This document shows positions 7,244 through 26,624 of a DNA stretch of 26,624 nucleotides, in pieces. The stretch spans positions 1-26,624 of the IMG/VR virus record IMGVR_UViG_3300042309_000677; one strand, 5' to 3'. The DNA comes from a virus. The translations under genes were made by a program, and so were the position numbers. Under the pieces are notes generated by a model. That model ran no database searches. It was not told where the DNA came from and saw only the letters and a program-made list of their open reading frames with translations. Position 1 is the stretch's first letter. Each line of letters begins with the position of its first letter.

Positions 7244-7530
7244 ATTTCATTGGTCAGAGTGGGCCCAGTTGTCAGACTAGCTCCTTCCAGCAGCACAGTT
7301 GTGATCCTGATTATGTGTCTGTTCTGAACCGACTCTGTTGCAAAGTTAAGGCTGATTGGGTCGTTGCCGAGGACCAGAGAGGTCTCTCCACGGTCGCCAC
7401 CTTTTTTCGACCCACGACCTGTCAGGCCAAATGGTGCAAAGTCTGGTTGCCCAACAAAGAAGTTCTGGAAGCTCCATGACGTTCCACTGCCTGATGATGT
7501 CAGGTAGTTCACGATTGCAAAGCTGCTCAT
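7090..7530 (-). CDS. Minor tail protein (lambda L-like)
   Basis: A 146-aa product. The C-terminal half carries IVVRLASPLDAVRAQFPRR followed by LSSSLVGSLPITGNLVIS, the 'SPxDAVxxxxPxRxL' pattern of lambda gpL / DUF1833-type minor tail proteins that link the tape-measure end of the tail to the J hub. The N-terminal part (SWSFQNFFVGQPDFAPFGLT) is Gly/Phe-rich and not recognised. The ATG overlaps the tape measure stop by 4 nt (ATGA). In lambda this protein binds an iron-sulphur cluster through C-terminal cysteines; none are visible here, so the C-terminal domain is shorter or different. Confidence 0.72.
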   Translation of the reverse strand: MSSFAIVNYLTSSGSGTSWSFQNFFVGQPDFAPFGLTGRGSKKGGDRGETSLVLGNDPISLNFATESVQNRHIIRITTVLLEGASLTTGPTLTNEIWLAASMEIDVEKIVVRLASPLDAVRAQFPRRQLSSSLVGSLPITGNLVIS

Positions 7531-10500
7531 AGCCCCAGCCTCTTTCTTGCGCTCACGCTATTCTGCATTGTTTGAAATGCCAGCGCTCGGCCTCGTTCAG
7601 CCGACTCGGCCATGCCTTTCTTGAATTGATCTGCAGTGACATATTCAACGCTGTTGATGACTTGGCTCTCATATTTGACGTTGAGGGCGCTGGTGAAGGC
7701 CCCGGACCTGGCCTGGGAGTTTTGCTTGCTGCTTTCAATCGCGTATCGGTTCTGGGTGAATGGATCACCTTCGCCCGCGCCCATTGCTTTTCTGATCTTG
7801 TCATTGGCGATGATCGTGCCTGACTGCCCTGGCACAAACAGTTCTGGGCCTTTTTCCCCAACCATGTAGGTGCGCCCGTAGTCCACTGGCCCGCCTGCGG
7901 CTTTCTTGCCGGCGAACATGCCGCCAGTGCCGAACATCCCGGTGATCGAGCCCAGGCCGCCAAAGATGCCAGCAATGCCCATGAGGGTGTTGTAGGTGCC
8001 CCCTTTGCCCATCTGCTGAACGCCGCCAACGATGCCCATCACGCCCATGGCTAGGCCGCCAATGCCGCCCAGCAGGCTTCCGAAGGACGCATTTGCCTTC
8101 TCTGTCTGCTCCGGCACCTGGCCCATCTTCTCCTGCAGGTTGAAGGCAGACTCGCCGAACATATTCATGTCCTGCGTAAGGCCGCTCATGTCGAAATTCA
8201 ACTCCGCGGCGTCTGTGAAGCTCATCCCGCTCGCTGCGGCGAAGTTGGAGGTGTCAAGGTTCCAACTGCCTGCTCCGGCCTGGCCGCCTATCGCGCTGTT
8301 GGAGAAGTCGATCTTGCCTTCGTAGGCAAGTGTTGATGCTGCGGACATCCATTCCGGCGCCCCTGCTGCCAGGCCCAGTAGGGGGTTCGCCCCTGTTCCG
8401 GGTGCTGTCGGGCTACCAGTGGCGGCCTGCAGCATTCGATTGGCGGCCTCCAGCATGGTGTTGCCGGCCGTGACCATGGTGTTGCCGGCGGCCTGTTCCG
8501 GGGTATTGATCCCAGCCCCTGGCGCCACGCCGGGCATTCCACCAACGGCGTCCTCGGCCTGCTTGTCGATTTTTTGCTTGTTGAATCCTGTCAGGCCGCC
8601 AAAAAGGGCCTTGGTCATCGCCTGCTCAGCCGGCGCCAGTAGGAAGTTCAGTGTGGACTCGATGTAGCGATCGGCCATCCGCTCCAGCATGTCCGTCATC
8701 AGCTGGCCAAGGTCAACGCCGCCCTCTTTGCGGGCCTTGGCCACGGCTTCGCGGACCATGCCGCTCATCCCGCTGACAAAGGTTTCCGTGTACTCGCCCA
8801 TGAGCTTGTTCCACGGCTGCTTCATGAATTCCGCGGTCAGTTCATTGCGCTTGTTGTCAATCTGAAGCTGCCGCAGCTCCAGCGCCTGGCGCTCCTGCAG
8901 CGCCTTGATCTGGTTCTGCAGGATCTCGCCGCTCGCTTCTTCCGTCTTGGCGATGGCGTCCTGGGTTTCTTTCAGCTCTTTGAGCTTGTTGTTGTAGTTG
9001 CTGGTGGCGTTGGCCGCATCTTGCGTCGACAGAGTCGCCGAGTTGACGGCTGCGCCTGGGCCACTGTCGGCTGACCTGCCGGCCGCAGGCTGCAAGGCCC
9101 GGACGCCTGAAGGTTGACGGAGGCTTTCCTTGATTGCATTGAGCGGATTCAGCAACTTGCCGAACTGGTCCCTGAGTTCGTAGTGGAGGTGTGTGTTGCT
9201 GCCGTCGTTGTAAACCGTCGCCAGGCGCTGCCCAGCTGATACAGGGTCCCCGACGCGCACCGCAGGGTTTTGGACATGGCCATAGGTCCCCTCGCTGCCG
9301 TCGTCGTATCGAACGCGCAAGCCCGCGCCCATATACCGGTTGCCGGGCCTTGTGAAGCTGGGGATGTACTGGACCACCCGCCCGGAGCGCCTGGCGTGGA
9401 TGGGATCGCCTGGATCGAGCCCAAGGTCCTGCCCTTGGTGACCTCGCCCGGCCCCCAACCCGTCGTTCCAGTTCGGGCCCCCCCGTGTTCCCGGCAGCAT
9501 GTTGCCGATGACGCCTGTGGCGGCCGGCGGCAATGCACGCGGCGGTGGCGCCAGCCCACCAACTGCCGCGGCCCTTCTGTCGCGGTCTTGGTTGATTTTC
9601 TGTGTGCCGGTCTCGTAGTTGAGCTTTGCTTGCAGCAGAGCGGCCTCGGCCTCCACCACCTTCAGCCTCACCGCCGCGATCTTCAGCTCAGACATCTCGC
9701 GCTGGTGCTGGATCTCCAGCGCCATGCGCTGCGCTTCGTGCTCCAGCCGCATGGCCCGCTCCTTGGCGGCTGATTCGGCTCTGGTGGCGTCGAGGATCGA
9801 CACATAGCCCTGCTGGCCCTGGGCCAATGCTTCGATCTCGGCGCCGATCACAGCCGACACCGAGGTGGGGTTCTCCCTCGCGTTCTCCTGGGCTTCCGCG
9901 AGTTTGAGCATGTTCTGGGCCCTTGTCTCTTGGGCCTTCGCTTCTGCTCGCGCCAGCTCCAGCCGGCTTTCCATCACCTTGTTCTGGCGTTCGGCTGCCT
10001 GGAGCCGGCGCTGCTCGCTGGCTTGCAGCTCATCGAGCACCTGTTTTTCGGCCTGCAGGGCCTTCTCGCGGGCCTGCACCTGCTGAGCGAGCTTCAGCTG
10101 CTGCCGCTCGTACTCGTTGAGGATCGTTTTTTGCTGCAGCTGTTCCAGCGTCATTTGCCGCTGGGTGTCCAGGGATGCCGCCTTGGTGTCCAGGGCCCGT
10201 TGCTCCAGGCTCGATGTGTCCTTGAGCAGCTTTTCCTCCTCGTAGCTGAGGCTGACGGTCTTGCTGATCAGAGCCAGCTGGTCGGCGCGGACCTTGTAGA
10301 GACGTTTTGCCTCGTCGTACTGCCGCTGCAGGGCCTTCAGATCAGTCCCCTTGGCGGTGCGCATCTTCTCGCGCACTTCCTGTTGGGCATTCCAGGCGGA
10401 CTGCTTCTGGTTTTCGATCTCAAGCCGCTGGATCTTCAGCTGCTCTTGCTGAATGCGTTGCTGGCGAAGCTGGATCTGCAGCTGTGTCCGCTGAATGTCT

Positions 10501-12563
10501 TTTTCTGTGGCCAGCAGCTTCGCTTGGTCGTCAATGCGAGCCATCTCATTGCGGCTCTGCACTTCGGCCTGTTTTTGCTGCGCATCCAGCTTGGTTTCGG
10601 GCGAGGTAGCAAGCTGTACCGCGAAGCCCACTCTCTGCTCTTCCAGCCGGCGGATCATGTCCCTGGCGTTCGCCTGCTCCTGCACCAGCCCACGCTGGGC
10701 CTGCATTAGCTTCAGGCCCTGCTCAAGCGCTCTAATCTCGTTTTTATAGGTGTCCTCTTTGATCTTTGCTGCTTCCCTAGCGAGAGCAAGGTTGCGTTCG
10801 CTCTGGGATGTGCCCAGTTCTTTGGCCCGTTCTTCTAGGGTCCGCCTGGTTCGATCAGATAGCTGCAGACTGACAAGATCAACTTCCTCGTTTTCTCCGA
10901 CAGTCTGGTTGTAGCTGGACACTGCAGCATCACCGGCTTGCCGCACCTGCCGCCGCTCGTCTTCCGTGAGCGGTGTCCCGCCGCCACCGCGGGAATCGAG
11001 GATTCGCTGCAGTTCTTTCTGTTCGGCAAGTTGGCGGGCCATGGCGCGTCCGCCATCTGCCATCTTCTTGTTGTTTTCATCAATGGCGTCTCCCCAGTTG
11101 CTGAGCGTCTTAAGGATCGAGTCGAGGAAATTCATGACCGCGCTGTCTTTGGCGAGGTCCGTCATGACCCTTAGGATTCCGCTCAATGGGCGCAGGATCC
11201 CGCCGATGCCCTTTGCAAGCAGCTCCACGGCCTTGGCGATGATCTGAAGGATCTTGCCGATACCTTCCAGAACGGGCCCAAGCGACAGCCCGACCAAGTT
11301 GGTCACAACAGCCGCCAGGTCCATCACGATGGCCAGGAGGCTGGAGAAGAACGACCCGACTGACACCAGCATCCCGCCGAGCTGGCCCAGCATCTTGAGC
11401 AATGGCTCAAGGGCCTCGTTCGTGCCCCTGATGAACATCATGAATGAGTCCTGCAGCCGATCCAGAGGCGTCAGAACGGACTGGAGCATCCCGGCCAGGC
11501 CCCGCTCAAGGGCTTGCCCGCCTTCGGATTGGATTGTCTCTGCTACGTCCTGAAAGTTACTTTTGACATTGGACAGCGATTGCGCGAGGACTTTCTGGCC
11601 CTCGTACAGCTTGTTCAGCTTGGTGATCAGGTCGTCATAGAACTTGCCCTGGGCCTGCAGCTGCTGAATATCGGCCGAGGAGGTGTATCCCAGCTTCTTG
11701 GCCAGCATTGAGTCCGGGCCAATGTTGCCCATCATTAGGGCGTTTACCTCTGAGCGGAGCTGATAGCCCGGAACGCCCAGGGTGTTCATGCCTGCGGCGA
11801 TCCTGGTACTCAGGTTGCGGATCTTGCCAAGATCCTGCCCTTCTTTACCTAGGTTTCCTGCATTCTGCAGGATGATATTAAATCCCTCGTAGATTTCAGA
11901 TGCGGTCGCCCCGCTGATCTTTGAAACCTCTTTTTGGATCTCCTTGTATTCACGCGAGATGACGCCCCTGACTGCCCGCATCTGGTTGGCGGTTCCTTCG
12001 ATCACTTCTCCATCTGGGCCCAGGATGGAGAAAGCGTTGGCCGTGAAGATCCCGGCTTCTGCCACCTGCTTGTTGAATCGGCCTGCCTCTGCCGCAAGCC
12101 GCTCCAGAGGCGCAAGCATCCCTTGGATGGCCGCCGCGGCCCCATTGAAGATGGCAGTCAGACCAGTTACAGCTAGCCCGATCTGGCCGAGATAGGGGAT
12201 CGCCCGCAGCGCTCCAGCCCCCAGGGCTGCCAGCCGGCCTCCCATGGCGCCCACTGCTCCACCGGCGCCAGCTGCGGCCTCCCCAGCACCCCCCAACCTG
12301 GCTGCCAGGTTCTCAAATACGTCCCCGTTTCCACGGAGCCCCTCATTGATGCTGCCCAGGATTCCCTGGAAGCCATTGAGCTTGTTCTTCAGCTCATCGA
12401 CTTTTCTTGTCGCCTCGCCGGTATCTGCGTCGAATTTGACACTGATACCCTGTCGCTCCAGCTTTTCTGTGTAACGCCTGAGCAGCTCAATTTCACGATC
12501 TAGGCTGCTGCGATCCCCAAAGAACCGCAGCGTGGCAGTCCCGAGGTTGTAGTCGCCTGCCAT
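7527..12563 (-). CDS. Tail tape measure protein with internal M23 peptidase domain
   Basis: A 1678-aa protein, the longest in the window, directly after the frameshifted chaperones. It has an N-terminal helical region, hydrophobic glycine/alanine-rich stretches (about 85-165 and 395-470), a long Gln/Glu/Arg coiled coil (about 580-980), then an M23 lysostaphin-like domain (about 1035-1140). This carries GHQGQDLGLDPGD (His1042, Asp1046), TYGHVQNP and THLHYEL (His1125, His1127), the metal-binding and catalytic signatures. A second short coiled coil and a Gly-rich hydrophobic C-terminus follow, with the tape-measure motif VGEKGPELFVPG near 1566. The protein sets tail length, and the M23 domain probably cuts peptidoglycan during entry. 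At about 0.15 nm per residue the tail would be near 250 nm, an upper estimate. It starts 24 nt after the chaperone stop. Confidence 0.93.
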   Translation of the reverse strand: MAGDYNLGTATLRFFGDRSSLDREIELLRRYTEKLERQGISVKFDADTGEATRKVDELKNKLNGFQGILGSINEGLRGNGDVFENLAARLGGAGEAAAGAGGAVGAMGGRLAALGAGALRAIPYLGQIGLAVTGLTAIFNGAAAAIQGMLAPLERLAAEAGRFNKQVAEAGIFTANAFSILGPDGEVIEGTANQMRAVRGVISREYKEIQKEVSKISGATASEIYEGFNIILQNAGNLGKEGQDLGKIRNLSTRIAAGMNTLGVPGYQLRSEVNALMMGNIGPDSMLAKKLGYTSSADIQQLQAQGKFYDDLITKLNKLYEGQKVLAQSLSNVKSNFQDVAETIQSEGGQALERGLAGMLQSVLTPLDRLQDSFMMFIRGTNEALEPLLKMLGQLGGMLVSVGSFFSSLLAIVMDLAAVVTNLVGLSLGPVLEGIGKILQIIAKAVELLAKGIGGILRPLSGILRVMTDLAKDSAVMNFLDSILKTLSNWGDAIDENNKKMADGGRAMARQLAEQKELQRILDSRGGGGTPLTEDERRQVRQAGDAAVSSYNQTVGENEEVDLVSLQLSDRTRRTLEERAKELGTSQSERNLALAREAAKIKEDTYKNEIRALEQGLKLMQAQRGLVQEQANARDMIRRLEEQRVGFAVQLATSPETKLDAQQKQAEVQSRNEMARIDDQAKLLATEKDIQRTQLQIQLRQQRIQQEQLKIQRLEIENQKQSAWNAQQEVREKMRTAKGTDLKALQRQYDEAKRLYKVRADQLALISKTVSLSYEEEKLLKDTSSLEQRALDTKAASLDTQRQMTLEQLQQKTILNEYERQQLKLAQQVQAREKALQAEKQVLDELQASEQRRLQAAERQNKVMESRLELARAEAKAQETRAQNMLKLAEAQENARENPTSVSAVIGAEIEALAQGQQGYVSILDATRAESAAKERAMRLEHEAQRMALEIQHQREMSELKIAAVRLKVVEAEAALLQAKLNYETGTQKINQDRDRRAAAVGGLAPPPRALPPAATGVIGNMLPGTRGGPNWNDGLGAGRGHQGQDLGLDPGDPIHARRSGRVVQYIPSFTRPGNRYMGAGLRVRYDDGSEGTYGHVQNPAVRVGDPVSAGQRLATVYNDGSNTHLHYELRDQFGKLLNPLNAIKESLRQPSGVRALQPAAGRSADSGPGAAVNSATLSTQDAANATSNYNNKLKELKETQDAIAKTEEASGEILQNQIKALQERQALELRQLQIDNKRNELTAEFMKQPWNKLMGEYTETFVSGMSGMVREAVAKARKEGGVDLGQLMTDMLERMADRYIESTLNFLLAPAEQAMTKALFGGLTGFNKQKIDKQAEDAVGGMPGVAPGAGINTPEQAAGNTMVTAGNTMLEAANRMLQAATGSPTAPGTGANPLLGLAAGAPEWMSAASTLAYEGKIDFSNSAIGGQAGAGSWNLDTSNFAAASGMSFTDAAELNFDMSGLTQDMNMFGESAFNLQEKMGQVPEQTEKANASFGSLLGGIGGLAMGVMGIVGGVQQMGKGGTYNTLMGIAGIFGGLGSITGMFGTGGMFAGKKAAGGPVDYGRTYMVGEKGPELFVPGQSGTIIANDKIRKAMGAGEGDPFTQNRYAIESSKQNSQARSGAFTSALNVKYESQVINSVEYVTADQFKKGMAESAERGRALAFQTMQNSVSARKRLGL

Positions 12564-17878: not shown

Positions 17879-18808
17879 TCAGGCCTTGTCCACGTAGGTG
17901 ACGGATTTGGGGTAGTACAGAGCAACACCTGCAAACTTGGCTTCTGCAGGAACCATGAACGCGAGGTTGCGCTGCTGAGGCGAGTGGAACTTCAGTGGCA
18001 TCGCAATGTGGAACTGAAGTTTCTCCGGGCTGCGCTTGTAGATCACAATGCGCTCTTTGCTCAGAGCACCGCCGCTGTTTGCCGGATCCAGCTCATTGAT
18101 TGGCTCGATCTGGGTGATGTAGGGATTGGTCCGCAGGAAATACTCCAGCACCGTGGTGTCGGAGGTTGTGCTGCGCGGCGTAGTGCTGATCTTCCGGTAG
18201 ACCGAATAGGGCAGCAGCATCGTGTCTGGTGTCTCCACCATCTTCGTTGCCTGTCGCTGATACGTGATCCCTTCATTGAGGATCTCGATCATGTCGTCGG
18301 GGGTGGCAGCGCTGGCGTCAAACCAGCCGTCATTGGAGCTGCCAGTGGCCACGATCTTGTCGACAACCGGATGGTTGAAGAACCCCTTCATGCCAGTTCC
18401 AGCCTGACCAAAAAGGGCCAGGCGGTTGGCCAGCTGCTCATAGGCCTTGCGCACGGCATCAGCACGGCGTTGCTCCAGGGAGACGCCCGCGAACTGGGCC
18501 TTGCGAAGTTCTTCGGTGGTGTACTTGAACGAGCCGCCAAAGCCACGGATCGTGTTGACGATCTCGCCACGCAGCACGTCGCTGGTGGGCAGATCGTCCC
18601 CGTAATCGCTCAGCAGAGCGAATTCGCCAACGTGGTCGTAGATCTCGTACTTGTAGGTTTCGGCGCCCTCGGGCACCTCGTTGCTGACAGGAATGAGGCG
18701 GGAATAGGGGATGTCGGCATAAACCGTTTCCAGTACCCGCGGGAGCATGTGCTCCAGCTCGCGCTGGAGAAACACTCCAGGGCTGGCGTTGTCAAGTCTA
18801 AAAGTCAT
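17879..18808 (-). CDS. Major capsid protein (DUF2184-like)
   Basis: A 309-aa protein. The N-terminus has FLQRELEHMLPRVLETVYAD then IPYSRLIPVSNEVPEGAETY, followed by the YDHVGEFALLSDYGDDLP segment. This is the characteristic opening of DUF2184-type capsid proteins with the HK97 fold. The middle holds a GTGMKGFFNHP motif often seen in capsid families with a bound-particle loop, and the end is FAGVALYYPKSVTYVDKA. Length is normal for the family. It follows the decoration protein gene after 10 nt and precedes the connector genes. Capsid subunits of this type need no protein tag for assembly, but the protease upstream may trim the prohead. Confidence 0.9.
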   Translation of the reverse strand: MTFRLDNASPGVFLQRELEHMLPRVLETVYADIPYSRLIPVSNEVPEGAETYKYEIYDHVGEFALLSDYGDDLPTSDVLRGEIVNTIRGFGGSFKYTTEELRKAQFAGVSLEQRRADAVRKAYEQLANRLALFGQAGTGMKGFFNHPVVDKIVATGSSNDGWFDASAATPDDMIEILNEGITYQRQATKMVETPDTMLLPYSVYRKISTTPRSTTSDTTVLEYFLRTNPYITQIEPINELDPANSGGALSKERIVIYKRSPEKLQFHIAMPLKFHSPQQRNLAFMVPAEAKFAGVALYYPKSVTYVDKA

Positions 18809-19395: not shown

Positions 19396-20151
19396 TCAAG
19401 CTCCTTTGGTTTTGGACAGGGGTTGTTGCCAGGCGTTCTTTTGGGCCTCGATCATTCGCTTCCTGGCTGCGTCTTGATCGCCCGTTGACATGGGGATGCC
19501 ACCGAGCGCTTCTGCCAGCGGGTCGCTGTCATGGCGCCCCTGGCCGGCGATGGCCATGGCATCGAAGGTGGCAGCGATGTAGTCGTCGCTCTTGCCTTCC
19601 AGCCGATCCGGGTCCACGCCGGCCTCGATCAGCGTGTCCACCATGATTTCCCGATCCGACAGGCCATCGAAGGTGGGTCGCTCGCCAAGGATTTGCGTGG
19701 CGCGGTCAATCAGCTCAAGCCGATCTGCGACCAGCTGATCGAGGTTGATGTCGGCGCCATCCAGCCGCTGGTCAAGCTCAGACTCCAGGCTGTCCAGGCG
19801 CTCAATGAGAGCATCCAGGCGGCCCAGGTCACGCTCATGAGCAGCGACGGCGTCATCGCGCTCAGCGCAGGCCCGGTCATACATGGCCTTGGAGACCATG
19901 CCGTCCTTTTTGGGGATCTTGTAGGAGCCAAGGTTGGCGGCCATGCCACCATCCATCTCCTCTTCCTCTTCCATCTCTTCGTCTTCCCCTAGACCTTCTT
20001 CGTCTGGGGCCATTTCTTCGCCCTCTTCCATGTATTCGTCTTCGCTGCCTTCACGAGACTCCGCCTTTCCTTTTGCATCTGCCCTGATCTGGGCATTCAG
20101 TGCATTGGCGAGGGCCTCGGTGGCATTGCTGAGCGCTGCCACTGCTGTCAT
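19396..20151 (-). CDS. Probable nested scaffold protein from internal start (251 aa)
   Basis: The ATG at 20151 is in frame with the protease gene (codon 199) and has AGGAGG 5 nt upstream, a much better site than that of the full-length GTG start. Translation from here would give a protein of 251 aa lacking the protease domain but having the acidic linker and coiled coil. This matches the lambda C/Nu3 layout, where free scaffold is made from an internal start. The codons CAG-GAG-GAA-TCC could produce the motif by chance, so it is a prediction. Confidence 0.5.
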   Translation of the reverse strand: MTAVAALSNATEALANALNAQIRADAKGKAESREGSEDEYMEEGEEMAPDEEGLGEDEEMEEEEEMDGGMAANLGSYKIPKKDGMVSKAMYDRACAERDDAVAAHERDLGRLDALIERLDSLESELDQRLDGADINLDQLVADRLELIDRATQILGERPTFDGLSDREIMVDTLIEAGVDPDRLEGKSDDYIAATFDAMAIAGQGRHDSDPLAEALGGIPMSTGDQDAARKRMIEAQKNAWQQPLSKTKGA

Positions 20152-20745
20152 GGATTCCTCCTGGGTCGTTGGTTGAGCTGTGCCATCTGTTAGATCGAGT
20201 GGGTCGATCGCATAGGCGGCATCCATGTGCAACCGCACTTCAGGGCCCGCCCGCCCCTTGCGCACGATCGCGACGTGGTTGCCACTGATTTCGCGCTGAA
20301 TTCCGTCGTACCGCTGACCGTCTGGCGTGACACCAGGAGTCGCGTCGAATTTCACGCGATAACCGACCGAGACCTCACGCGCCTCACCGCTTTTGACAGC
20401 CTTGATGGCGTCAGCGTCGGTGATCGTCACCACCCCATAAGCAAATGGAGTGCGGTACTCGACGTTGGAACCCGTGTGGCCACGCTGGTACTCCCGGCAG
20501 GTGTCGGGGGTTAGCAGCTCGGGCGGATGCTCCAGCGTGACGGGCAGATTGGCCAGCGATAAGAGGCTGTCTTGCTTGGAGACTTCCTCTTCCGGCCTGT
20601 ATTCGACTGCCTCTGTACCGTCTTGCCGCCGATAGCGCTGCAGTCCAGTACGCGCAAAGGTTGCTTTGATGCGCAGATAGCCCTCGGGAGTCTCCTCCCA
20701 GCTGGGCTCAATCAGAGCACGGTCATAGCGAATTGCTTGACCCAC
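19396..20745 (-). CDS. Prohead protease fused to scaffold (DUF2213-like)
   Basis: A 449-aa product with a GTG start; no in-frame ATG lies near. Residues 1-175 match DUF2213: IRYDRALIEP, GYLRIKATFARTGLQRY, AYGVVTITDADAIKAVKSGE, REVSVGYRVKF and GNHVAIVRKGRAG. This family is widely treated as a prohead protease; the GNHVAIVRKGRAG block is the diagnostic end. Residues 225-268 form a very acidic Glu-rich linker and 285-345 a coiled coil (RDLGRLDALIERLDSLESEL), as in scaffolds. The protease would cleave the scaffold part so that it can leave the prohead. There is a strong internal start at codon 199. Only a weak ribosome-binding site precedes the GTG, so the exact start is uncertain. Confidence 0.83.
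   Translation of the reverse strand: MGQAIRYDRALIEPSWEETPEGYLRIKATFARTGLQRYRRQDGTEAVEYRPEEEVSKQDSLLSLANLPVTLEHPPELLTPDTCREYQRGHTGSNVEYRTPFAYGVVTITDADAIKAVKSGEAREVSVGYRVKFDATPGVTPDGQRYDGIQREISGNHVAIVRKGRAGPEVRLHMDAAYAIDPLDLTDGTAQPTTQEESMTAVAALSNATEALANALNAQIRADAKGKAESREGSEDEYMEEGEEMAPDEEGLGEDEEMEEEEEMDGGMAANLGSYKIPKKDGMVSKAMYDRACAERDDAVAAHERDLGRLDALIERLDSLESELDQRLDGADINLDQLVADRLELIDRATQILGERPTFDGLSDREIMVDTLIEAGVDPDRLEGKSDDYIAATFDAMAIAGQGRHDSDPLAEALGGIPMSTGDQDAARKRMIEAQKNAWQQPLSKTKGA
20157..20162 (-). promoter_or_regulatory. Internal ribosome-binding site AGGAGG
   Basis: AGGAGG on the minus strand, 5 nt before the in-frame ATG at 20151 and inside the protease-scaffold gene. It is one of the strongest Shine-Dalgarno matches I noticed among the starts in this window, and it lies at the protease/scaffold domain border. 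Confidence 0.55.
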
Positions 20746-20843
20746 GGGCAGTCGAACTCTGCGTTGATTGTGTAAGCCACGCTGGCCGAGTTCTCTACAA
20801 TGTCGCCGGACCCGGCATTTTCGCCGCGCTCCCCGTCATTCAC
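20712..20843 (-). CDS. Possible small open frame before the protease gene (43 aa)
   Basis: A GTG-started frame directly after a stop codon encodes 43 residues (starting VNDGERGENAGSGDIVENSA and ending CPWVKQFAMTVL). It overlaps the first 34 nt of the protease-scaffold gene in another frame and is antisense to the start of the plus-strand regulator. No Shine-Dalgarno motif is visible and I recognise no homologue. If translated it might couple to the weakly initiated protease gene. It may equally be chance. Confidence 0.2.
   Translation of the reverse strand: MNDGERGENAGSGDIVENSASVAYTINAEFDCPWVKQFAMTVL
20796..20801 (+). promoter_or_regulatory. Possible -10 element (TACAAT) for the plus-strand regulator
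   Basis: TACAAT in the 109-bp gap is five of six bases of the TATAAT consensus and lies 54 nt before the regulator ATG. No good -35 hexamer is present at 16-18 bp; TTGATT at 20764-20769 is 26 bp away, too far. The call is weak. Confidence 0.25.
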
Positions 20844-20854
20844 CTATTTGGCCG

Positions 20855-21082
20855 ATGTTTGTGGCGCAACCCGATCGCTATGTCCGGGTGGTATTTGGCG
20901 CCAGGCTGCGAACGATGCGCAAGCACCGCGGACTCACCCAGGACCAACTGGCTGAACAAATCAGCGTGAGCAGGCAATGGGTCTGTGATGTGGAGCGCGG
21001 CCGGACCATCCCCAATGCCGGGCGTGTCCGAGCGCTCTGTCAGCTATTGAACTGCTCGGCCGACTTGTTGCTTGATCTTTGA
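20855..21082 (+). CDS. Xre-family helix-turn-helix regulator (75 aa)
   Basis: A plus-strand gene among minus-strand late genes. From the ATG at 20855 the product is 75 aa, with a complete HTH_3/Cro-C1 domain: LRTMRKHRGLTQDQLAEQIS then VSRQWVCDVERGRTIPNAGR and LCQLLNCSADLLLDL. The frame is open to 20768, but the earlier part (Arg/Pro/Ser-rich) does not look like the family, so I prefer 20855. No Shine-Dalgarno motif is visible. Its 3' end overlaps the end of the gene at 21040-21339 by 43 bp, tail to tail, and it diverges from the protease gene. It probably binds DNA as a dimer. It is likely an accessory (moron-like) gene with its own promoter; its target is unknown. Confidence 0.82.
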   Translation: MFVAQPDRYVRVVFGARLRTMRKHRGLTQDQLAEQISVSRQWVCDVERGRTIPNAGRVRALCQLLNCSADLLLDL

Positions 21083-21339
21083 TCACCCTGGATCTTGCGC
21101 CACTGGGCCATCGCTTTGCGATTCAGTTCAACGCCAATCGCTGCTTCGCGGTTCACCAGATCCCAGTCGATCGGTGGTTCCTGATCTTCTGCCTTGTCTT
21201 TCTCGGCGTCCGCTCGGCTGTTCGGCGCTGTGAGCAGCTGGCGCCACAGCTTTTGCTGCTTCTCGGCTTCGTCTAGATCGCCCTTGTCCCTGGCTTGTTG
21301 CATGGCCGCCCAGGCCTGGGCATGAGCAGGAATGTCCAT
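21040..21339 (-). CDS. Small charged helical protein, hypothetical
   Basis: A 99-aa product starting MDIPAHAQAWAAMQQARDKG. It is Lys/Glu/Gln-rich and appears helical (DLDEAEKQQKLWRQLL, GVELNRKAMAQWRKIQGDQ), with no recognised motif. The frame is open to an ATG 21 nt upstream, but the ATG at 21339 is just 2 nt after the kinase gene stop and is more plausible. Its stop at 21040 overlaps the 3' end of the plus-strand regulator by 43 bp. It may be a small head accessory protein. Confidence 0.6.
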   Translation of the reverse strand: MDIPAHAQAWAAMQQARDKGDLDEAEKQQKLWRQLLTAPNSRADAEKDKAEDQEPPIDWDLVNREAAIGVELNRKAMAQWRKIQGDQRSSNKSAEQFNS

Positions 21340-21341
21340 GG

Positions 21342-22577
21342 CTACTCGGCCTCTTCCCAAGCAGCGTAATGCCGGTCTACGGAACGGCGGAACCGGCGCA
21401 AATGGCTGGGGCCAAAGATCCGGTCGCGGGCTGCTTCTGCCTGCTTTCTCACCTTGTCTGGTATCGGTGGCAGCAGGCCCACTTGCCGTTCAGCCTCGTC
21501 AAATTCCATGCCGGCTTTCACAAGGGCATTGGCTTGGGTGATGCGCTGCAAGGCATTGGGGACCTTCTCGTCGCCGTTGGCTTCACGCCAAGCGTCGTCA
21601 TGGGCCTCGATCACCTTCTTGTAGGCCCGTTCAGCGTCCCAGGCCTGGCTTCTCACCCGGTCCAGGAAGTCGGCGATCGACGGCTTGATTCGCTTGGCGC
21701 CGCGGCCACGCCGTTCGACTTGAGCGTTCACGTTCATGAGGGTGCCGCCCATGACGAACAACGCCACGGACTCCTCTCTGGCCACATCAAGAGGCAGGCG
21801 CCTCGTTTTTTGCCTTGCCAGTCCCCAGTCAATCAGTGAGGGGGTTCCATCGGGCCCCACCAGGATGTTGCCCCCGTGCAGATCGCCATGGTCCAGGCCT
21901 GAGTCGGCCATGATCCGCGCAAGCCTGGCGACTCCTTTGGCATACCGGGTCAATGCGCCTGGCTTGGACAAGATGGCCTCGGCCTCGGGGGTCGCCCGCA
22001 GCGCCCGGTGATCCTTGGCCAGCGGGGTGCCAGGTTGCATCCGGTACGCAAAGGCAAGCCGGCCCCCGGCCAGCTCCGTCACCTCGCCAATCGGCTCGGG
22101 CCCGATGCCCAGCTCAAACGCCTTCTGCATGTTGGCTCGCTCCCGCTCGACCATGTTTCGGCGCTGCGTCCTTCGGTCCACGCCTGGATTGGCCTCCAGT
22201 GGATCGCCATTGGTCAGCCGATCGACTTTCACCACCACGGGTCCGGCCGGTGTCTCGGCCAGATAGGTGTCGCCAAAGGCCCCGCCTCCCAGAGCTTTTA
22301 CCGGCGCCTTCCCGTTGATGAGCAGCTGGCCCTGTTCGTTGCTGCCAAGGACCACCCGCCCCTGGCTCGCCGCCGTGTTCCCCGTCGCGGGGGGCTCTCC
22401 TTTGCGGCAGCGCTTTTTGGCGGAGATGTACCCCTCGCCGCACGGCTTGCCCTTCTCACCGCCGGCCAGGTCCAGGCTCATCTGGCCTGGGGCCTGCCTG
22501 ATCCGCGCATCGAGCCGGACCAGCCGTTCGCAGGCTTCATCCAGCCGGCGTCCCATTTGCGGGTGACTGGCTTTCAT
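21342..22577 (-). CDS. Protein-kinase-fold protein with N-terminal Cys module
   Basis: A 411-aa product. Residues 28-60 carry a Cys module (APGQMSLDLAGGEKGKPCGE, GYISAKKRCRKG; Cys46, Cys57) shared with the next gene upstream. Residues about 94-260 have a full kinase core: glycine loop GGGAFG (97-102), lysine VVVKV (Lys117), possible helix-C Glu144/146, catalytic HGDLHGGNILV (Asp232, Asn237) and metal-binding IDWG (Asp250), replacing DFG. It looks like the RIO/ABC1/Bud32-type kinase fold rather than a standard Ser/Thr kinase. About 160 C-terminal residues are helical. The ATG overlaps the upstream stop (ATGA). It may phosphorylate host or virion proteins; the substrate is unknown. All core residues are present, so it should be active. 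Confidence 0.83.
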   Translation of the reverse strand: MKASHPQMGRRLDEACERLVRLDARIRQAPGQMSLDLAGGEKGKPCGEGYISAKKRCRKGEPPATGNTAASQGRVVLGSNEQGQLLINGKAPVKALGGGAFGDTYLAETPAGPVVVKVDRLTNGDPLEANPGVDRRTQRRNMVERERANMQKAFELGIGPEPIGEVTELAGGRLAFAYRMQPGTPLAKDHRALRATPEAEAILSKPGALTRYAKGVARLARIMADSGLDHGDLHGGNILVGPDGTPSLIDWGLARQKTRRLPLDVAREESVALFVMGGTLMNVNAQVERRGRGAKRIKPSIADFLDRVRSQAWDAERAYKKVIEAHDDAWREANGDEKVPNALQRITQANALVKAGMEFDEAERQVGLLPPIPDKVRKQAEAARDRIFGPSHLRRFRRSVDRHYAAWEEAE

Positions 22578-24643
22578 GATTCACCACGCTCCCGGCGAAT
22601 GCGCACTGCCCGGAACACATTGTTGAGACCCCAGATCCAGTCGCCATAGCCGGGGTCTCGCCCGCCATTGCCCTGCCGGCGCTGCTTGCGCTCCGGGGGC
22701 TTGCCAGTCTCCTCCCCATAGGAGCGCTTCCGCTGCTGCAAACGCTTCTGGGCCGGGCTGGTGGTGCCCAGATAGCGGCTGGCCTCCATAAACACCATCG
22801 CGGCCTTCAACCGCTCGTCATCCACGCCGCTCAGTTGGTTGCGGGCCAGGCTGCGCTGGTAGTCCAGGGCCTCCTTCTCGCTGCCATGCACGCTGGAGTC
22901 CGCCTCAAGGTTGTAGGTCAGCTCAGCCCGGTCAATCCCGGTCATTCGCACGATCTGGTCAGTGGCCCAGTTCAGTTCATCGGCGCTCATGCGCTGGGCG
23001 ACGGCAGCCTGAAACAGGCTCCCCCCGAGTGACTGGTCCCCGTAGCGGAGACCATCACTGATGTAGCCGCGGTCGTTGAAGAACTCCTGGTCGTTCTTCT
23101 CCGCGAACTTCTTGAGCCCCTTCGGCCTGGGCAGGCCCTCGCCCTTCGGTTCGATCGGTTGAAGCCGCGCTGGCTTTTCCTTTGGCCGAACCACCCGCGG
23201 CGTCGCGCCCTCGCTGCTGGTGCTGGAGCCCGCGGCCGTGGCCTGGCCGGCGCCCTGTGGTGTCGCCTTGGCACCAACAAAGGCACCCTCGCTCATCCAA
23301 GAGCCGCCGGGATACCAGTGCCCGTCTGGCCCGTATTCGCCGCCGGGCTTGGCGCGGCGCAGCTTGACCTCCACCGATGGCTTGCGGCCGGTTTTGGCTG
23401 CCTCGGCCTTGCGGCGCTCGCGCTCTGCCCTGGTCACGGCACGTTGCTCGACGGCCTCAGCTCGCAGGGCCTTGGCTTTGGCCATGGCTTCTTCGGGCTT
23501 GAGCACGCCGATACCGCGGGGTGCGATTTCACCTCGGGCCAGCTGCTGCAACCTTGAGATGCGCTCTTTGCTGACGCCAGCACGGGCTTCTTTGCGGCAA
23601 TCCTTCTGGACGCTGATGCAGGAACTGCCGCAGCTGTAGCCCGTGCTGCAACGTCGCTTGATTGCATCGAGCCTGGCGAAGAGCCAGTCCAAGGGCCCCT
23701 GGGAGTCGCTGCGGGCCGCCGCCTGCAGCTTGGCCTCTGCACGCTGCAGCCGCTTGGCCAGGTCACTTCGCTCGTTTTGGAGCTTGTTGGCCATGGCCGT
23801 TTTCCTCTGGCCCGTGTAGCTCCAGCCCTTCTCGCTCATCCGCTCTGCTTTCCACTGCACATTCAGCTGGGCGTACATGTCCTGCTCGCTGGAGATGCCA
23901 TTGCTGTTTTCGATCTGGTCAGCGGTGGCGTCGCCCATCCGCCATTCCCGCCTGCGGCCCCAGTCTTCTGTTCGCCACGCGCCGACGCTGACCTCTGGCC
24001 GGGATGACAGCTCCACCTCATCCCAGTCCTTCTGCCATTTCTTTTCCAGCTCGCCGAGCTGGTGCTGGGCCATTCGCAGCCGGGCGACGGTGCGGGCAGT
24101 GCTTTGAAGGCCCTTGAACTCCTTTCGATCCAGCGGGTCGGTGTAGCCCATCAGCTTCAGGGCTGATTCGGCGCTGACCACGCGGGTTTGGCCCTGGTGC
24201 TCGACCTCAAATTGATGCACCACGTTGCGGCCGGTCTCGACGTTGGCGATGCTCTTCTCCCAGTCAGACACCCGGCGCTCGACCACCTCGCCTCGCTGGT
24301 CCTGCACCTCTTCTGTCGTCCACTGCCAGGTGTAGCCAATGAGCCTGGCGCCGCTGGGTCCGGTGATCGGGCTCTCAAGCGCCACCCGCTCTTTGGGCCG
24401 GCTGCGGCGTGCCTCAACTGGGGCAGACCCTGGGCCGCCTGCCTCAGATGAGGCGGTTTGAGGGTTTGCACCTCCAGCGCTTTTCTGGCAGGTCTTGTCC
24501 CTGGAGATCCACCCCCTACCGCACGGCTGGCCCTTGCCGCCGCCGCCAAACAGATCCAGCTGGCCTGGGGCGGCCTTGACCTTGGCGTCCAGTCGCCGCT
24601 CCAGCTGCAGCAACCGCTCTGAGATCTCTGCGGTGGTGGCCAT
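22574..24643 (-). CDS. 689-aa protein with two Cys modules, function unknown
   Basis: Residues 24-54 carry the first module (APGQLDLFGGGGKGQPCG, WISRDKTCQKS; Cys41, Cys52), shared with the kinase. Residues 324-375 carry a second type (CSTGYSCGSSCISVQKDC; Cys332, 338, 342, 349, then RISRLQQLARGEIAPRGIG), nearly identical to the start of the metallopeptidase upstream. Between them is a charged helical region (REWRMGDATADQIENSNG). At 436-456 there is GEYGPDGHWYPGGSWMSEGA, a pattern I recall from phage and polyvalent proteins. The C-terminus is helical and basic. It starts 1 nt after the metallopeptidase stop. It may be a virion-associated or delivered protein; no catalytic site is recognised. 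Confidence 0.78.
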   Translation of the reverse strand: MATTAEISERLLQLERRLDAKVKAAPGQLDLFGGGGKGQPCGRGWISRDKTCQKSAGGANPQTASSEAGGPGSAPVEARRSRPKERVALESPITGPSGARLIGYTWQWTTEEVQDQRGEVVERRVSDWEKSIANVETGRNVVHQFEVEHQGQTRVVSAESALKLMGYTDPLDRKEFKGLQSTARTVARLRMAQHQLGELEKKWQKDWDEVELSSRPEVSVGAWRTEDWGRRREWRMGDATADQIENSNGISSEQDMYAQLNVQWKAERMSEKGWSYTGQRKTAMANKLQNERSDLAKRLQRAEAKLQAAARSDSQGPLDWLFARLDAIKRRCSTGYSCGSSCISVQKDCRKEARAGVSKERISRLQQLARGEIAPRGIGVLKPEEAMAKAKALRAEAVEQRAVTRAERERRKAEAAKTGRKPSVEVKLRRAKPGGEYGPDGHWYPGGSWMSEGAFVGAKATPQGAGQATAAGSSTSSEGATPRVVRPKEKPARLQPIEPKGEGLPRPKGLKKFAEKNDQEFFNDRGYISDGLRYGDQSLGGSLFQAAVAQRMSADELNWATDQIVRMTGIDRAELTYNLEADSSVHGSEKEALDYQRSLARNQLSGVDDERLKAAMVFMEASRYLGTTSPAQKRLQQRKRSYGEETGKPPERKQRRQGNGGRDPGYGDWIWGLNNVFRAVRIRRERGES
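23508..23550 (-). repeat. 43-bp exact direct repeat, copy A
   Basis: These 43 bases are identical to 26371-26413, 2.86 kb away, within a longer homologous stretch encoding the LQQLARGEIAPRGIG segment in both proteins. Identity ends sharply at both edges. It is probably the trace of a module duplication or gene conversion, and could support recombination between the two genes. Confidence 0.9.
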
Positions 24644-24644
24644 C

Positions 24645-26588
24645 TCAGCTCAGCCAGAAAACGAAGCGCCGCACCCGCTCCTCGCGGGAATCGCGCCGGG
24701 TTCCACCTGGGAAGTCGTCCTGGCGGATCTGGGCCATCAGAGCGTCAAACATTGGCTCCATCGCCTCGGCTTGCTCCCTGGTGGGCCACAGCGGATCGCC
24801 AGTGGCTTGCGTGAGATAGCTGTTCTCTCGTCCGGCCTTGGCCAGCTTCAGCTGGCAGTAGGTCTCAAACGAACGGGCAAACATCTCCTCACGCGACTGC
24901 CAATACTGATCGCTGATCATCATTCCCTGCTTTTTCTTCTCTCTGATTGCGCGGTACACCTGCTGGATGTAGCCAGTTGTTTCCCATGACGCCATCACGC
25001 CGCGCATGGCGGCTCTTTTCTCAGGGCTGCCAACCCCCTGGGTCAGGAATGACCGGCCACCTGCGGTGTAATTGTCCAGGGCGTGGCCCCATTCATGGGC
25101 CAGCGTGCCGATGCCTTTTTTGCGGGTCAGGTTGATCACCTTCATGCCTGGCTCGTAGTGAGCCATGGCCGTGCCCTTGCCGCGGGCCCCGATGGCCAGG
25201 CCCAGCGTGCCCTTGAGGCTGATGGCTTCATCAGGCAACTCCAGGATGTCCGCCAGGTCCACCAGGGCCTCGGCGGCCTTCTGGACGTGATGCTTGCGCT
25301 CGTCATCCGTGACGGAGTTGCCGTATTGCAGGCCGCGGAAGCCTGAGCGTTTGATGATCTGCTCGGTGGCGGCCTCCACAGAGCCGCCGACACTGCGACC
25401 GCCGACACGCCGGGCAGGGGCCACGTACAGATCAGCCGCGCTGAAGCGCTTCTTGCCGCTGCCTTCCTTGCCAAATGCCGCGGCCAGGGTGGAGCCCTCG
25501 ATGATCCTGGTGGCTGCCTCTGCAGCCCTGCCCATGGATGTGGCGGGGTTCTGGCGCCAGTCCGCGCCAACATCGGCGGCCAGGGCCTTGGCGAACGCTT
25601 CCATCTGCCCGTAAACGCTGGTGCTGCCGCGCTTGGTCAGGCGCCTTTGCATGTCCACCAAACCGTTGGCCACTGGGTTAAACGGGTCCCCATAGGTGCT
25701 CTGGTAGCCCTGGCCCTCGGTCTTGCGGTACTGGCTGATCAGCTCCGATAGGCGCCTTTTCAGGGCCGAGCGCACGTCGCCGGCCGGCATGTCCTTGTTG
25801 GCCTCGACAAAGCTCCGCACGGACTGGAAGGCGTCGAAATACTGCTTGCGCAGGGTCTTCGCGTCGGCCGCCTCGATCGTCCGGCCGCCATAGGTCATCC
25901 TGTCCCGCGCCTGCCGGCTTTCCATGTCGGAGAGGTAGTCCGCCACGGCCTTCGCCGACAGGCCAGGGAAGGCTTTCAGGCAGTAATGGGCCTCCAGGCG
26001 GGAGAGGCAGTTGGTGGGCTCGATCCCGGCGATCAGATCCGTCGGGAAGTTTTTGAGCATGTTGTCCCGCGTGATCAGCTTCTCGGCCTGACCAGAGGCC
26101 TCCGCCTCCTCGATCGTGCGGAAGGCATTGCGCTTGTGCCGGGCCGAGTTGGCCAGGTCCTCACCAGCGTTCTGGACCGAGGATTTGCGAGCGAACGCAT
26201 AGTCCTCGTCCTGCTCAACCGGTTTGGCCTTGGTTCGCGGCGAGCCCGCTGGCGGGGCCGCCTTGGCTGCTTGAGCCGCCTGGCGCTGCTGCTTGATTTC
26301 GGAAGCCCGCGCCTGCCGGCCGGCGGCCAGTTGCTCGGCCTTGGTGGCGGCCTCGACCGGCTTTAGGGTCCCGATACCGCGGGGTGCGATTTCACCTCGG
26401 GCCAGCTGCTGCAGGCGGTTGATCCGTTCTTTGCTGATCGCAGAGCCGGCTTCCTTTCGGCAGTCCTTCTGAACCGAGATGCAGGTGCTGCCGCAGCCAT
26501 AGCCCGTCACGCATTTGCGCTTGACTGCATCGAGCCGTGCCTCGATCTCGCCCAACAAGGCCTGCCGTAGGCACAACTGAACCTTCAT
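24645..26588 (-). CDS. LPD1-like zinc metallopeptidase with Cys module (polyvalent-type)
   Basis: A 647-aa product. Residues 26-43 hold a Cys module (CVTGYGCGSTCISVQKDC) followed by a segment shared with the neighbouring 689-aa protein. The C-terminal third matches large polyvalent-protein-associated domain 1: FRGLQYGNSVTDDERKHH, GTLGLAIGARGKGTAMAHYE, then LAHEWGHALDN with HEWGH at 498-502, and a later EEMFARSFE (567-575) that can give the third metal ligand. These residues form a gluzincin-like zinc site. Polyvalent proteins are delivered into recipient cells by phages and conjugative elements and protect the incoming DNA. The ATG at 26588 shares TGATG with a possible upstream stop; GTG at 26591 is an alternative. 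Peptidase activity is predicted, its target is unknown. Confidence 0.85.
   Translation of the reverse strand: MKVQLCLRQALLGEIEARLDAVKRKCVTGYGCGSTCISVQKDCRKEAGSAISKERINRLQQLARGEIAPRGIGTLKPVEAATKAEQLAAGRQARASEIKQQRQAAQAAKAAPPAGSPRTKAKPVEQDEDYAFARKSSVQNAGEDLANSARHKRNAFRTIEEAEASGQAEKLITRDNMLKNFPTDLIAGIEPTNCLSRLEAHYCLKAFPGLSAKAVADYLSDMESRQARDRMTYGGRTIEAADAKTLRKQYFDAFQSVRSFVEANKDMPAGDVRSALKRRLSELISQYRKTEGQGYQSTYGDPFNPVANGLVDMQRRLTKRGSTSVYGQMEAFAKALAADVGADWRQNPATSMGRAAEAATRIIEGSTLAAAFGKEGSGKKRFSAADLYVAPARRVGGRSVGGSVEAATEQIIKRSGFRGLQYGNSVTDDERKHHVQKAAEALVDLADILELPDEAISLKGTLGLAIGARGKGTAMAHYEPGMKVINLTRKKGIGTLAHEWGHALDNYTAGGRSFLTQGVGSPEKRAAMRGVMASWETTGYIQQVYRAIREKKKQGMMISDQYWQSREEMFARSFETYCQLKLAKAGRENSYLTQATGDPLWPTREQAEAMEPMFDALMAQIRQDDFPGGTRRDSREERVRRFVFWLS
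26371..26413 (-). repeat. 43-bp exact direct repeat, copy B
   Basis: Second copy of the repeat at 23508-23550, here near the start of the metallopeptidase gene. Confidence 0.9.
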
Positions 26589-26624
26589 CACGACCGCCCG
26601 CTATGGGGGCAGTATTGCGCCGCT
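26588..26624 (-). CDS. Possible 3' end of an upstream gene (partial)
   Basis: The last 37 bases are open in a frame that ends with TGA at 26590-26588 and encodes about 11 residues (AAQYCPHSGRS). The stop would overlap the metallopeptidase ATG as TGATG, the junction type used at several places in this operon. A second frame ends with TAG at 26603-26601, so the reading is not certain. A portal or minor head gene would be expected here. Confidence 0.3.
   Translation of the reverse strand, partial: AAQYCPHSGRS

Follow-up and report, generated by a model that had tools for sequence, protein, structure and literature searches.

A shared RLDA motif and cysteine module in three adjacent phage genes suggest processing of effectors by the head protease

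Why would a protein kinase, a metallopeptidase and a third protein, encoded side by side by a phage, share the same small cysteine-containing sequence? We addressed this question with a 26,624-nucleotide stretch of viral DNA (positions 1 to 26,624 of the IMG/VR record IMGVR_UViG_3300042309_000677; hereafter the window), in which three intact open reading frames (ORFs), all on the minus strand, encode proteins of 411, 689 and 647 amino acids (aa). The host is likely to be a picocyanobacterium, because the closest named phage is Synechococcus S-CBS4, whose major capsid protein (MCP) is 52% identical to that of the window. An earlier note on this DNA had proposed that the shared cysteine (Cys) modules could be a packaging or docking tag or could bind metal. 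We consider it probable that the three genes encode precursors of virion-delivered effectors, which the head protease would cut at RLD/A (the slash marks the cut), leaving the Cys module as the new N-terminus. The RLDA sequence, rather than the cysteines, is probably the key part of the tag.

One family of cysteine modules in three adjacent genes

The 647-aa protein (24645-26588; an alternative GTG start at 26591 is possible), the first predicted effector, has the characters of a zincin metallopeptidase of the LPD1/CLCA_X type: it carries an HEXXH motif (HEWGH, 25083-25097, aa 499-503) together with an LPD1 region (Pfam LPD1, 7.5e-14, aa 560-623), it also matches NCBIfam CLCA_X (2.2e-28) and phrog_616 (1.6e-35), and it is 40% identical to DdrB-ParB/LPD5-type phage proteins. 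Its RLDA (26526-26537, starting at aa 19) is a predicted cut site between aa 21 and 22, and is followed by a four-Cys module, CVTGYGCGSTCISVQKDC (26460-26513), and a segment, RLQQLARGEIAPRGIG (26370-26417), predicted to be helical.

The second predicted effector, the 689-aa protein (22574-24643), consists of two tagged units (aa 20-326 and 327-689), and both tags are kept in relatives. Neither a Pfam nor an NCBIfam family was found for it, and its structure model, of low confidence (predicted local distance difference test, pLDDT, 56), gave no significant fold match. The N-terminal unit has RLDA at aa 17-20 (24584-24595), a predicted cut site, and a two-Cys module, PCGRGWISRDKTC (24488-24526), preceded by APGQLDLFG. 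The internal RLDA (aa 324-327, 23663-23674), at which the chain is predicted to be split into two effectors, is followed by a four-Cys module, CSTGYSCGSSCISVQKDC (23597-23650), and again by the RLQQLARGEIAPRGIG segment (23507-23554).

The third predicted effector, of 411 aa (21342-22577), matches Pfam APH (5.4e-09) and, more weakly, RIO1/ABC1/Pkinase. It has the catalytic-type HxD...N and metal-binding-type DxG motifs (HGDLHGGN at 21867-21890 and LIDWG at 21822-21836), and judging from these motifs and the profile match it is an APH/RIO protein kinase-like fold. In the kinase, RLDA lies at aa 21-24 (22506-22517; predicted cut site), upstream of a two-Cys module, PCGEGYISAKKRC (22407-22445), before which stands APGQMSLDL.

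All the motifs that had been quoted from these proteins (APGQ(L/M), GKG(Q/K)PCG, GxIS and K.C.K; C-x5-C-x3-C-x6-C; and RLQQLARGEIAPRGIG) are present in the window, but what had been described as two separate modules align as one family, with the consensus (C)-x5-CG-x2-(C/W/Y)-I-x3-K-x-C. The zincin and the internal tag of the 689-aa protein have the form C-x5-CG-x2-C-I-x3-K-x-C; the form without Cys1 and Cys3, PCG-x2-[W/Y]-IS-x2-K-x-C, stands at the N-termini of the kinase and the 689-aa protein. The three proteins therefore hold four copies, not three as counted before, and RLDA indeed lies upstream of each; the helix in which it was said to lie is weakly supported, since the AlphaFold2 model of the module (helix 11-22, hairpin, helix 52-63) has a mean pLDDT of 63. 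The three genes are adjacent, as had been noted, but the cluster is larger than had been described: a close relative (L003) has a fourth tagged gene upstream of the zincin gene, encoding a 475-aa protein with HELGH, and the window ends just short of that position.

The 689-aa gene and the zincin gene are 77% identical in DNA over ~200 base pairs around the C-x5-C-x3-C-x6-C module and RLQQLARGEIAPRGIG, and therefore the two copies are homologous and do not resemble each other by chance. This identity shows a recent duplication, and one could suppose that the shared stretches are the mere trace of duplication or shuffling within a head-proximal gene cassette, with no role in targeting or processing. 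We regard this as very improbable, because, relative to effector domains, the module keeps its place in phages of unrelated lineages and with different portal types, and because the RLDA-type motif is shared with the MCP and the protease, which are not homologous to the tagged proteins.

No Pfam, NCBIfam or PDB profile of a known Cys-rich or zinc domain matched the module, and neither its sequence nor its predicted fold had a match in the PDB; the sole PHROGs match was the unnamed phrog_33618. The modules thus do not appear as parts of well-known domains, which would have spoken against a tag. Among 107 distinct module sequences, Cys1 and Cys3 were both absent from 12, which make up all the two-Cys cases (12/12); six others apparently lacked Cys1 alone, and on inspection their cysteine was displaced by one or two positions. 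Cys1 without Cys3 was seen in none of the 107. In bacteria, relatives of the exported Endonuclease I (EndA) have the same module immediately behind their signal peptide, at three loci and others. The paired loss of Cys1 and Cys3 and the export of relatives lead us to favour disulfides over a metal site: the module is probably a hairpin pinned by the pairs Cys1-Cys3 and Cys2-Cys4 that caps the mature N-terminus, and our guess is that capping or steadying this new N-terminus is its job. A separate eight-Cys form (CCKVCRKGKACGNSCIS..KTC...CAC) was observed in small exported proteobacterial proteins.

Small Cys modules often bind zinc, and this one is basic (rich in K and R), which would suit a knuckle that binds metal or nucleic acid and keeps the effectors attached to the packaged DNA, with RLDA merely as part of the domain. 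We find such a knuckle improbable. The two-Cys forms would be unable to build a four-Cys site, the disappearance of Cys1 and Cys3 as a unit disfavours zinc binding, the module follows signal peptides in exported proteins, and its distance from the motif ranges from 9 to more than 20 residues. The metal-binding half of the earlier proposal is accordingly not favoured.

The RLDA motif in the head protease and the capsid protein

The window encodes, on the minus strand, a head maturation protease (DUF2213) fused to an acidic scaffold-like tail (19396-20745; Pfam DUF2213 1.3e-46, 159 bits against a cut-off of 22; phrog_530 3.8e-86), whose gene adjoins that of the MCP (17879-18808, minus strand; Pfam PF09950 5.2e-56). 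RLDA/RLDS occur in the protease itself, at 19810-19821 and 19789-19800, along with further [KR]xD[AS] sites. Over nine phage sequences, R-phi-D-[AS], in which phi is a hydrophobic residue, has 75 occurrences among the protease, MCP and Cys-module proteins, which total 27,679 residues, and 33 in the other 146,555 residues (2.71 versus 0.23 per 1000 residues, ~12-fold, p about 2e-35), whereas five control motifs (K-phi-D, R-phi-E, swapped, reversed and with another first residue) gave 1.0-1.8-fold. The tagged proteins have no homology to the MCP or to the protease, which has 19 sites in 3,227 aa. In the complete genome of Planktothrix phage PaV-LD, all 16 sites lie inside the 38-66 kilobase structural region, in the protease (6), the MCP N-terminus, tagged proteins, the tape measure and one small protein. 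Phage CL131 has 9 of 10 sites in the structural half, with portal, protease and MCP among the proteins that carry them; in its virions 23 structural proteins have been detected by liquid chromatography-tandem mass spectrometry, the spectra being searched for fully tryptic peptides only. The element that the tagged enzymes share with head proteins is R-phi-D-[AS], probably a cut site of the head protease, and not the cysteines. The idea of a packaging or docking tag is partly supported: a shared tag on enzymes agrees well with the context (portal and MuF fusions, head gene clusters), but its active element would be RLD/A and not the cysteines.

The motif also follows the protease from phage to phage. 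In contigs with DUF2213 or its capsid partner, 50 of 59 modules have [KR]xD[AS] within 60 aa upstream, compared with 1 of 16 in contigs that have neither (p 8e-9). Modules deep inside proteins behave similarly, 31 of 41 having [KR]-phi-D-[ASFN] within 60 residues upstream.

A direct clue to the cut comes from T1/TLS-like coliphages, which have the same protease and capsid families as the window. The mature MCP of phage TLS begins with ASDMGIW by Edman sequencing (PMC11447400), and the precursor reads GAKND/ASDMGIW; the cut is thus after Asp and before Ala (P1 = Asp, P1' = Ala). In TLS, [KR]xD[AS] occurs 10 times in the 715 aa of protease and MCP and 7 times in the other 14,576 (27-fold, p 7e-10), and the control motifs were not significantly enriched in these two proteins. 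Four other Drexlerviridae likewise have [KR]xD at the MCP site, and [KR]xD[AS] repeatedly along the protease. At the corresponding place the window MCP has RLDN (18788-18799), which aligns with the proven TLS cleavage position, and nearly all MCP N-termini of the window lineage have R-x-D in their first dozen residues, 3-7 residues ahead of a conserved G-x-[FW] element. Because R-phi-D-[AS] is common to MCP and protease and the homologous TLS site is proven, the leader of the tagged proteins would end in the consensus cut by the head protease that the phage itself encodes, as a leader of the T4 type does.

Since the zincin gene adjoins, it might instead be this cluster enzyme (LPD1) that cuts the tagged precursors, as has been proposed for polyvalent proteins, the tags marking its sites. 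We think this improbable as well. TLS has the same motif and a proven cut between Asp and Ala, with an annotation that lists a capsid maturation protease and no zincin; besides, the motif is commonest in the head protease itself and the MCP, and it tracks DUF2213 or its capsid partner.

Several points weigh against cleavage by the head protease. The window MCP reads RLDN, not RLDA. The TLS authors surmised, by analogy with Rogue1, that 45 residues are removed (PMC11447400), whereas their Edman sequence implies 27; we used the direct sequence for the cut position. The enrichment counts are not independent, as the modules are homologous to one another, and the model of the module has the modest mean pLDDT given above. 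Nine of the 59 modules in contigs with DUF2213 or its capsid partner lack a site; three of these nine have RLDF or RMDF, and two PaV-LD zincins have nothing similar. For this phage, processing and packaging are predicted from the genes. Finally, RLDA repeats every seven residues in the scaffold tail and some leaders, as a coiled-coil docking motif might.

This last point suggests another reading, in which RLDA is a docking helix that mimics the coiled coil of the scaffold, intact effectors enter the prohead and trimming is incidental. The seven-residue spacing of RLDA/RLDS in the tail of the protease-scaffold and in several leaders (GRLDALIERLDSLE; RLDALAARLDARAR), the position of RLDA inside a helix in the AlphaFold2 model and the coiled-coil content, which suits scaffold binding, would all agree with it. 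However, the motif is also found singly, outside any heptad series, both at the N-termini of MCPs and behind the beta-type leader of PaV-LD; the mature capsid protein of TLS is cut at the homologous position; and the protease chains of PaV-LD and TLS carry their sites at scattered places. We therefore judge the docking helix unlikely, though less so than the other alternatives, and retain cleavage by the head protease.

A single universal cut motif for all lineages was rejected, since Mu-portal and lambda-portal lineages have other strings, phi-D-F-A and EGLTP, which were not found in other head genes of these lineages. In phages without DUF2213, [LVI]DFA and EGLTP stand before the Cys modules of different effectors and portal fusions (five loci on five contigs are examples), possibly as places where other proteases cut or dock.

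Occurrence of the module and neighbouring genes

The earlier note had made its tag idea depend on a recurrence of the modules in further virion or effector proteins, and such a recurrence was found. A DNA pattern scan of IMG/VR for the module gave at least 119 stretches, and with a stricter protein pattern the module was found in 102 ORFs at 81 loci among the matches listed. The 71 module proteins profiled included kinases of the APH/RIO/Pkinase type (7), LPD1 (6) and DnaJ (5), and further matches were, among others, to Mu-type and other portals, ADP-ribosyltransferases, Zeta toxin, inorganic pyrophosphatase, MuF, lipase/esterase and GNAT. In dozens of phage proteins the module separates varied enzymes from a preceding head-targeting part (portal, MuF or leader domain); in one of them the order is Portal_Mu, module and ADP-ribosyltransferase. 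Stand-alone effector-type enzymes with the module were found in head gene clusters, near MCP and protease. This repertoire encoded with virion genes (LPD1, APH/RIO kinase, ADP-ribosyltransferase, inorganic pyrophosphatase, GNAT, Zeta toxin) is that of polyvalent and MuF-type proteins. One tagged phage protein, another zincin-type effector, matches Pfam ATLF (lethal-factor-like metallopeptidase, E 1.3e-5).

Among named phages, PaV-LD encodes at least six proteins with the module next to its capsid genes, and from their motifs these appear to include ADP-ribosyltransferase-like and zincin-like ones. Two proteins of Synechococcus phage S-CBWM1 carry it, a RIO-like kinase and one that looks like an HNH nuclease. 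Several relatives have two or three tagged units in one chain: the window proteins contain one effector domain or two units, and relatives reach 1,828 aa with three modules.

In larger effectors, a leader domain of ~80 aa and beta type was observed N-terminal to the RLD[A/F] site, in ORF065R, 078R and 079R of PaV-LD and at five other loci. The PaV-LD leader is related to leaders of other DUF2213 phages (hhalign probability 90%); a single homologous leader domain across Mu-portal and DUF2213 lineages was weak as a candidate (hhalign probability 46% and 7%).

Three other genes of the window touch on this system. Just upstream of the protease and antisense to it lies a Cro/C1-type helix-turn-helix gene (20768-21082, plus strand); an antisense 'transcriptional regulator' stands at the matching place in S-CBS4 (gp021) and CL131 (gp037), a hint that the head operon may have a conserved control gene. 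Between kinase and protease is an ORF of 106 aa (21040-21360, minus strand), kept in two relatives (L003 is one), with a conserved terminal PIDWDLVNREAAIGVELNRKAM motif and SRADAEK inside; its product may be another head-processed protein. A tape-measure-like protein of 1678 aa (7527-12563, minus strand) contains an M23 peptidase domain (Pfam 2e-15), which probably serves passage through the cell wall.

Proposed processing and known delivery systems

Each precursor would start with a short helical leader ending in R-hydrophobic-Asp/Ala. By means of this leader the precursor would enter the prohead during assembly, alongside the capsid protein and the DUF2213 protease-scaffold, both of which have the same sequence. 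The protease would then cut after Asp, so that the Cys module becomes the N-terminus of the mature effector, and at the internal RLD/A of the 689-aa protein it would release two effectors, giving four from three genes. The effectors would exit with the DNA at infection.

Such a route has well-studied counterparts. In T4, internal proteins and Alt, effectors that include an ADP-ribosyltransferase, are brought into the prohead by a short N-terminal leader that the head protease removes, and are injected (PMC9024508, PMC9503650). The window system resembles it in the short N-terminal leader, the targeting by which is predicted for the window proteins, but differs in its DUF2213 protease, the [KR]xD/[AS] site, the conserved Cys module after the cut and the occasional presence of several tagged units in one chain. 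In the giant phages SPN3US and phiKZ, the prohead protease trims many of the head proteins that are ejected, at a short consensus which its other substrates share (PMC10052503), but these inner-body proteins have another protease and consensus and no Cys module. The Dar system of phage P1 (DarB, DdrB, DarA) loads large effector-type proteins into the head, for which 30 N-terminal residues of DarB suffice, and in both T4 and P1 a short N-terminal signal is enough to load foreign proteins (PMC9024508); the P1 leader is unrelated, and neither an RLDA nor a Cys tag is described for P1. Polyvalent proteins unite LPD1/zincin, kinase, ADP-ribosyltransferase, inorganic pyrophosphatase and Zeta toxin domains in virion-encoded effectors (Iyer et al. 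2017, PMC5512222). These, like MuF and portal-fused toxins, have the same kinds of effector domain as the window system. However, PMC5512222 describes neither the Cys module nor the cut-site rule ('cysteine' occurs 0 times in its main text), and polyvalent chains are large (2-15 effector domains), whereas the window effectors are smaller and encoded by separate genes. The TLS/T1-like Drexlerviridae share the DUF2213 protease family, the capsid fold and, in TLS, the Asp/Ala cut of the MCP, but the module search found no Cys-tagged effectors in them.

More tentatively, and with less confidence than we have in the cleavage itself, the Cys module might be a general junction domain of a phage protein-injection system, with lineage-specific leaders (portal, MuF, beta-domain or short helix), interchangeable enzymes and polyproteins cut by the head protease; the disulfide-pinned module at the new N-termini might then enable exit from the virion and crossing of the periplasm, as perhaps for the exported Endonuclease I.

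Within the known class of head-processed delivered effectors, what is new here is a Cys module without a name and a protease rule; the latter was not found described in a limited set of open-access papers (main texts). If RLD/A is the cut site, [KR]xD/[AS] before a Cys module would make it possible to read the set of injected enzymes from sequence. It would give a consensus for the DUF2213 protease family, which is present in more than 1,600 phage records, and a short delivery tag comparable to the capsid targeting sequence of T4. The rule would cover a large group of phages including cyanophages, and would reveal also enzymes hidden in long 'hypothetical' proteins.

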